In this document: piece after piece, positions 29,761-31,249 of the stretch
How the letters are laid out: each line of letters starts with the position of its first letter
Position numbering within the stretch: position 1 is the stretch's first letter
NCBI RefSeq assembly: GCF_001425785.1
Contig: NZ_LMDI01000010.1
Coordinates: forward strand, 62,001-126,000
DNA length: 64,000 nucleotides
Direction: 5' to 3'
Source of the DNA: Rhizobacter sp. Root1221
GTDB lineage: Bacteria; Pseudomonadota; Gammaproteobacteria; Burkholderiales; Burkholderiaceae_C
Program-made: the position numbers and the translations under genes
The notes under the pieces: generated by a model
Told to the model about the DNA's origin: nothing
Database searches by the model: none
Seen by the model: the letters and a program-made list of their open reading frames with translations, nothing else

Positions 29761-30159
29761 TCAGGCGTTCGGCGGGTCTTCGGGGTACTGCGCCGCCCCT
29801 TCGATGGGGGTCATCCAAGCCTCGCGCCGCTTGATCCACAGCTCTTCGGTGGGCACGAGGCCACAGGGTCCGCCGTCCAGCGCGCCGAGTTTCACCTCCA
29901 CCTCATGCTCTTCCGGCCGGAGGGCATACAGGCGGGTGCCGCAGCGGGGGCAGAAGTCGCGGCCTTCCCACGTGCGCGTTTCACCGCCGGTGGTGAACGC
30001 GGCGGTGTCCCACACGGCATAGGCCATGGCGACGCTGCCGGTTTCCTTGCGGCATGTGGTGCAGTGGCACAGGCCCACCTTCTGCGGTGGGCCGATCAAG
30101 GCAAAGCGGACGCTGCCGCAGCTGCAGCCGCCGAGGCGGGTGTTGGGAGGAATGCGCAT
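29761..30159 (-). CDS. GFA/CENP-V-fold zinc protein
   Basis: 132 residues of the glutathione-dependent formaldehyde-activating enzyme fold. Zinc ligands are visible: C12 and C14 (GCSCGSVRF), C31, C33 and C36 (CHCTTC), and C70 and C73 (CPRCGTRLY). Most members are not shown to act on formaldehyde; the call is of fold only. It starts 39 bases after the hypothetical gene 30199-30699 and is probably the second gene of that SOS-box-headed transcript. Confidence 0.85.
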   Translation of the reverse strand: MRIPPNTRLGGCSCGSVRFALIGPPQKVGLCHCTTCRKETGSVAMAYAVWDTAAFTTGGETRTWEGRDFCPRCGTRLYALRPEEHEVEVKLGALDGGPCGLVPTEELWIKRREAWMTPIEGAAQYPEDPPNA

Positions 30160-30198: not shown

Positions 30199-30699
30199 TC
30201 AATCGCGGCCGGGCTTGCGGTAGCCGCCTTCGATCCAGGCGGTGGCCGAGTCGCGCGTGAGCTTGAACGCCGGTGACACCCCGACCCGTGCGAGTTCGTT
30301 GCCATCGCCATCGCGGTCGCGGGCGGTGAGCACGGCAGTGGGGTCGTCGTCGTCGGGGGTGATGTCCATCGTGACGCGGATGCGTGTGAGGCCCAGGTCC
30401 ACGTCGACCTGCTTGTGCAGGATGGCGTGCAGCTGCTGCTCGTGGCGGCGCAGCACCTCGTTGGCGGTTTTCACGAGCGTGTGGAACGCCGGGGCGTCGA
30501 GGGGCTTGGGGTTTTTCTTGTCGCGGCCCATGGTCCATGGGCCCACCAGCGCGGCTTCGGACTGGCCGTCCTGGGTCATGGCAACGGCCCAGCCGTCGTC
30601 GTCTTCGTTCTTGATGATGCGGGCGGTCCAGCCGTCGTCCTGCCAGAGCGTGGCTTGCTGGAGGGCGACAGGCGCTTCGTCTTCGATGGCAAAGGTCAT
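30199..30699 (-). CDS. Hypothetical acidic protein behind a LexA box
   Basis: 166 residues, soluble, acidic, rich in Trp and Asp. Three parts can be seen: an N-terminal segment (VALQQATLWQDDGWTARIIKN), a helical middle ending in a His-rich stretch (NEVLRRHEQQLHAILHKQ) and a beta-like C-terminus with DITPDDDDPTAVLTARDRDG. No family recognised. ATG at 30697-30699. Its promoter carries TTGCCA-N16-TATAAA with a near-consensus LexA operator over the -10 element, predicting induction by DNA damage. The GFA-fold gene follows in the same direction. Confidence 0.7.
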   Translation of the reverse strand: MTFAIEDEAPVALQQATLWQDDGWTARIIKNEDDDGWAVAMTQDGQSEAALVGPWTMGRDKKNPKPLDAPAFHTLVKTANEVLRRHEQQLHAILHKQVDVDLGLTRIRVTMDITPDDDDPTAVLTARDRDGDGNELARVGVSPAFKLTRDSATAWIEGGYRKPGRD

Positions 30700-30721: not shown

Positions 30722-30741
30722 GACTGTAAGTTTATACAGTA
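30722..30741 (-). promoter_or_regulatory. LexA (SOS) box overlapping a promoter
   Basis: On the minus strand TACTGTATAAACTTACAGTC contains CTGT-N8-ACAG, the LexA core, and matches 16 of 20 positions of the E. coli consensus. The -10 hexamer TATAAA (30731-30736) lies inside it and TTGCCA (30753-30758) is the -35, spacer 16. Transcription would start near 30724, about 25 bases before the ATG at 30699. Many betaproteobacteria use this LexA motif. Confidence 0.75.
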
Positions 30742-30784
30742 TTCGAGCGCGCTGGCAACCATCGGTGCGCGGGCCGCGCCGCCG

Positions 30785-31249
30785 TCATCGCGGCGGCATC
30801 GGTGCTGCAAGCGTGGGTGTGATGGCCGATGCCGGGTGGCACGCGCACGCGTGTTCGCCGGTGGCCGTCATGAACGACTGCAGGATGGCGCAGGACCGCG
30901 TGGGGTCGCCGTCGCACTGCTGGCGCAGCGACAGGAGCTGTTGTTCGAGTGCCTTCAACGCCGCCAGTTTCGCCTGCACGGTGGTGATGTGGCCGTCGAG
31001 CAGCGCGTTGACCTGGGCGCACGAGCGGTCCGGCGCGGCCGCGAAATCGATCAGCGTGCGGATCTCCGGCAGCGGGATGTCGAGCGAACGGCAGTGGCGG
31101 ATGAACTGCAGCCGCTCGCGGTGCTCGGTGGCATAGGCGCGGTAGCCGGACGGCTCGCGCCGGGGTTCGTCGAGCAGGCCTTCGCGCTCGTAGAAGCGGA
31201 TGGTCTGCACGTCGCATCCGACCTGGGTGGCCAACTCGCCGATTCGCAT
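30785..31249 (-). CDS. MerR-family regulator, CadR/PbrR type
   Basis: 154 residues: N-terminal MerR helix-turn-helix (MRIGELATQVGCDVQTIRFYEREGLL), a long dimerisation helix (about 80-112) and a Cys-containing C-terminus. C77 (DRSCAQVN) is the conserved metal ligand of Cd/Pb/Zn regulators, with further cysteines at 112, 120, 135 and 137 (HACACHP). This composition points to cadmium/lead sensing. The matching operator lies just upstream at 31273-31287. No P-type ATPase or efflux gene is adjacent. Confidence 0.88.
   Translation of the reverse strand: MRIGELATQVGCDVQTIRFYEREGLLDEPRREPSGYRAYATEHRERLQFIRHCRSLDIPLPEIRTLIDFAAAPDRSCAQVNALLDGHITTVQAKLAALKALEQQLLSLRQQCDGDPTRSCAILQSFMTATGEHACACHPASAITPTLAAPMPPR

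Follow-up and report, generated by a model that had tools for sequence, protein, structure and literature searches.

The window analysed here, a 64,000-nt stretch of the Rhizobacter sp. Root1221 genome, contains a gene for a 166-residue protein of a family without a name (30199..30699, minus strand, with its ATG at 30699), preceded by a palindrome that resembles the operator of the SOS repressor LexA. This arrangement raises the question of whether the gene belongs to the SOS regulon of its host and, if it does, how far such control extends among its orthologues and what the protein might do. A first-pass annotation of the same DNA had predicted a new SOS-regulon member in this lineage, possibly with a zinc GFA-fold partner.

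The LexA-type operator and its promoter

The operator, TACTGTATAAACTTACAGTC, occupies 30722..30741 on the minus strand and is supported by pattern matching, by a matrix built from the same genome and by boxes before orthologous genes. It agrees with 16 of the 20 consensus positions (four mismatches to TACTGTATATATATACAGTA), its arms are a perfect CTGT-N8-ACAG, and 22 nt separate it from the ATG of the 166-residue gene, the first gene after it. A sigma-70-like promoter read from the sequence (30731..30758, minus strand) consists of TTGCCA at 30758-30753 and TATAAA at 30736-30731 with a 16-nt spacer, so that the −10 hexamer sits within the operator. The consensus match, the exact arms and the −10 overlap had all been described in the first-pass annotation, and each was reproduced on the minus strand. 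A promoter scanner returned just an overlapping 9-of-12 variant, TTGCCA-N18-TAAACT, because it required T as the final base of the −10 element.

When up to three mismatches to TACTGTATATNNATACAGTA were allowed, the window yielded 30722-30741 alone, as a hit on each strand, and shuffled sequences gave 0.00 matches. The bare CTGT-N8-ACAG arms occurred twice in the window against 0.72 expected, and 33 times genome-wide against 17 for a reversed control; the arms alone are weak evidence, and the strength lies in the whole 20-nt site.

The source genome (6.87 Mb, 76 contigs) provided its own calibration. It encodes a single protein with the LexA DNA-binding domain (PF01726) and carries two boxes before lexA and one before recA, and thus holds a LexA repressor of matching specificity. 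Other boxes precede UmuD-type, DNA polymerase IV, ImuA and error-prone DnaE-type genes, as well as PA0069-family radical SAM and UvrD-like helicase genes (Pfam/NCBIfam assignments). On a matrix of nine sites at SOS genes of this genome, the window box scored 28.7 bits, above all nine of the sites themselves (14.3-28.4 bits, each left out in turn); as we chose the sites and found them with similar patterns, the matrix is not independent of the consensus. The runner-up in the window reached 8.2 bits, and one simulated genome of equal length (6.87 Mb) and dinucleotide make-up contained no site as good as the window box.

Half sites similar to those of LexA are possible in other regulators, and a gene for a MerR-family regulator (30785..31249, minus strand, identified by Pfam) lies directly upstream on the same strand, outside the transcription unit. 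The palindrome could in principle be the operator of such a regulator rather than of LexA; this is extremely improbable given that across all 20 positions it matches the lexA, recA, umuD, dinB and dnaE2-like sites of the same genome, and that MerR is absent from the listed neighbour families that recur around the orthologues.

Several additional LexA-like sites were encountered. In the same genome, a strong one (27.9 bits; L112, G000:C14:44391-44406) precedes a reading frame whose product has a glyoxalase domain (PF00903). Another glyoxalase-domain gene and the PA0069-family radical SAM gene face each other, with the box at C1:305179 between them. The site TACTGTATGCAACAACAGTA (22.5 bits; L126, G000:C16:22527-22542) lies just ahead of a reading frame starting MLTDYRQTYRP, and a further box (L003, G000:C1:383531-383546) separates a gene for a UvrD-like helicase from a DUF72 gene.

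Distribution of the box among orthologues

The 166-residue family is common. The gene was present in 20 of 60 relatives, in 8 of 11 members of the genus (own genome included), in 138 of the 299 genomes sampled from the family to which the window belongs, and, among named genomes, at no fewer than 556 places, 80 of them kept; a plasmid search returned 14 records, all larger than 640 kb. The set used for the motif scan comprised 218 loci: the 20 from relatives, the 80 kept places, 28 from the 299-genome search, 80 fetched as regions and 10 of the 14 plasmid hits, sets that may overlap in species. At each locus the scan covered 300 nt immediately upstream of the conserved W19 codon, and a score of at least 20 out of 26.2 was counted as a box; consensus, weights and threshold were our own choice.

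A box was found in 16 of the 218 upstream regions, that of the window and 15 others. Three hundred permuted palindromes run on the same regions gave a mean of 0.05 and a maximum of 2, and base shuffles of the regions gave one box in 4360. Other 300-nt windows, taken from 208 of the loci, contained a box in 4 of 2202 cases, one of them preceding a UvrD-type helicase gene. Among the upstream regions of other genes in the 80 kept loci the count was 5 of 504; two of these are the L079 and L080 boxes seen from the other side, and one belongs to the L084 orthologue itself. Thirteen of the 16 boxes have perfect arms, 14 start 84-123 nt ahead of the W19 codon, and all 16 upstream regions are distinct; a single pair of loci (L148 and L052) shared an identical 120-nt upstream sequence. 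L193, with a score of 19.1 just under the threshold, was counted as lacking a box.

Thirteen orthologues were added later, full-length places of the 299-genome search that had initially been omitted (G084, at a contig edge, and several fragments were excluded); the controls and the tree cover the 218 without them. One of the 13 has a box (L262, from the genus of the bearer L217), bringing the total to 17 of 231. The scan of orthologous promoters that the first-pass annotation had proposed as a check therefore gave a divided answer: boxes occur far above chance, but 214 of the 231 upstream regions lack one at the threshold used, including those of three of the eight genus members that hold the gene.

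Within the genus the bearers are the window genome, L006, L017, L018 and L020. The others are Pseudoduganella namucuonensis, P. guangdongensis, Massilia sp. Root418, Duganella sp. CF458, Noviherbaspirillum galbum, Comamonas antarctica, Cupriavidus metallidurans CH34 and four more loci (five with L262). In L006, the nearest sister, one arm is altered from ACAG to CCAG, a substitution shared by the recA site of the window genome. On a FastTree phylogeny of the 218 proteins the 16 bearers cluster and require nine changes, and the box therefore persists inside clades but is acquired or lost from one clade to another. L163, L209 and L254 have constant arms while core and flanks vary; box-less close relatives of bearers were also found, namely L043 and L059 by the Massilia group and L214 by L163, L209 and L254. 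LexA control of the family is patchy, having been repeatedly gained or lost. The phrase "in this lineage" was accordingly both too narrow, because the box extends to several other genera of Burkholderiales, and too broad, because most orthologues, some of them in the genus itself, are without one; membership of the SOS regulon as such is well supported by the own-genome calibration and by the orthologue boxes.

The large box-less majority would also be expected if the box were a passenger, able to bind LexA but arisen by chance in a promoter and with no selected role for the 166-residue gene. L194, L084 and L259 are lone bearers on the 218-protein tree, as was L217 until L262 was added, and these isolated cases point the same way. 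Such a chance origin is nevertheless very unlikely when the 16 boxes are set against the mean of the permuted palindromes, when the bearers cluster on the tree, and when clades retain the arms while the flanks diverge. Selected control by LexA remains our preferred reading.

Two further boxes were noted near orthologues. In a Herbaspirillum locus the near-perfect box TACTGTTTATTTATACAGTA (L031:3475-3494, score 24.5) lies 472 nt before the assigned start (L031:3947) and was not counted because it falls outside the 300-nt stretch. The other is at Bordetella genomosp. 13 (L040), where a UvrD-type gene roughly 1 kb away from the orthologue carries a box.

Gene neighbourhood of the box

Downstream of the 166-residue gene, at a distance of 39 nt, lies a gene of the GFA fold (29761..30159, minus strand; PF04828, Pfam E-value 6.9e-21), into which transcription from the same promoter may continue. 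A close homologue (81-100% identity) stands beside the gene in 2 of the 218 loci, those of the window and its sister species L006, in a search in which 80 of the loci, with about 600 nt or less of flank upstream and less downstream, say little. The sole other GFA match among the 218 loci, in L064, is 34% identical and about 1.5 kb away. The GFA protein was consequently rejected as a conserved functional partner, and the zinc GFA-fold partnership suggested by the first-pass annotation is not supported.

A survey of neighbouring genes, made with a home-made gene caller that recovered the orthologue itself in 72 of 81 loci, revealed no widely recurring neighbour family; the commonest, LysR regulators, was found in 14 of the 81 loci, the orthologue itself aside. 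In Pseudoduganella guangdongensis the orthologue shares the box (L079:3920-3939) with a photolyase-related gene (PF04244) that diverges from it, the box lying between the two, which fits a theme of DNA damage. This shared box illustrates how the operator might serve another gene, such as a divergent neighbour, with the 166-residue gene a bystander. That the operator serves a gene other than this one is highly improbable: in the window the upstream MerR gene has the same orientation, so the box fronts the 166-residue gene alone, and among the box-bearing loci the neighbours vary while the distance to the 166-residue gene stays steady.

The protein, its possible role and known systems

Taken with the comparisons above, the sequence evidence makes it very probable that the 166-residue gene is under LexA control and likely an SOS-regulon gene. 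From established knowledge of the SOS response we infer LexA binding, repression and induction at this site. A LexA operator lying over the −10 element of a one-gene unit (perhaps of two genes here, with the GFA gene) would keep the 166-residue gene off; upon DNA damage, RecA filaments would promote self-cleavage of LexA, and the gene would then be induced together with dinB, umuD, imuA and the dnaE2-like gene. The product is a small acidic protein with two predicted beta4-alpha units.

The first-pass annotation described this gene as one of no known function, and this holds: searches of Pfam, NCBIfam, PHROG and PADLOC assigned the protein to no family above cut-off, and a PDB sequence search with an eight-row profile returned nothing at E ≤10. 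The hits to DUF4371 (E 0.13), PRK11037 (E 0.062) and phrog_38383 (E 0.43) were much too weak to be retained. A phage origin was also rejected, as 28 pattern matches in viral contigs yielded none that was confirmed and 50,697 phage records held no relatives, and so was a defence origin, as there was no PADLOC match. The longest nearly unbroken conserved run of the protein is GPWTMGRDKKNPKPLD.

AlphaFold was used to model the window protein (pLDDT 85, pTM 0.59) and the orthologue from Pseudoduganella namucuonensis (pLDDT 80, pTM 0.53), with the window plus 53 of the 80 loci and the window plus 69 of the 80 loci as input; both models predict a beta4-alpha unit occurring twice. For both models the top solved matches in Foldseek were repeats I-II of human PURA, weak matches (E 0.03 and 0.011) with a TM of about 0.2 and an rmsd above 20; plant Whirly proteins rank below them for both models, and so does Drosophila Pur-alpha for the second. 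VIA-align gave Z up to 6.3 and 5.7 on unrelated sheets, while a single Pur-alpha chain reached Z 4.6 across 43 residues. A viral structure library contained nothing at E ≤0.001.

PUR-repeat proteins bind nucleic acid. The PUR repeat has a beta4-alpha topology (PMC2954813), and the predicted beta4-alpha-beta4-alpha order and the top-ranking PURA chains liken the 166-residue family to PUR/Whirly proteins such as Pur-alpha and Borrelia Bpur. Unlike these, the 166-residue protein has no sequence match in the PDB, is acidic (pI 4.9, with a basic stretch at 53-95), and consists of halves in which hhalign detected no mutual sequence similarity; the order of elements agrees with a PUR-like two-repeat domain, but the models do not superpose well. 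The PUR-like fold is a lead, not proof. The role we would suggest, with considerable doubt, is that of an accessory factor which associates with nucleic acid in the damage response and might bind single strands in the manner of PUR/Whirly proteins. A fuller picture, rather unlikely as a whole, is that of a damage-inducible PUR/Whirly-like single-strand nucleic-acid binder of the Burkholderiales SOS regulon which, once released from LexA, would coat exposed strands or remodel them alongside RecA and error-prone polymerases, and whose gene would have been wired into the SOS response several times independently.

For a family that is common and yet nameless in the libraries searched, LexA control in separate clades offers a functional hook, namely DNA damage, and the box-bearing clades point to species in which a damage role could be tested. 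The patchy box also makes this family a good case for the entry of a gene into, and its exit from, the SOS regulon. Judged by search results alone, literature searches returned no paper about the family and no report of LexA binding or damage induction for the gene.

The closest known system is the beta-proteobacterial LexA/SOS regulon, for which a single LexA motif was applied to Vibrio and beta-proteobacteria (Sanchez-Alberola et al. 2012, PMC3323433). The 166-residue family is not named in the parts of that study available to us. The study does include two hypothetical LexA genes, hypA and hypB, known here by description alone, and the 166-residue gene could be one of them; this is more conceivable because Cupriavidus metallidurans, a box bearer here, is among the genomes of its set. 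As described there, hypA has no homologues outside multi-chromosome beta-proteobacteria, which fits poorly with the widespread 166-residue family. The splB gene of the same study may have its counterpart here in the PA0069-family radical SAM gene. The core SOS genes that it lists include lexA, recA, dinB, imuA and dnaE2, and, as in that regulon, their counterparts in the present genome are preceded by boxes of the CTGT-N8-ACAG type.
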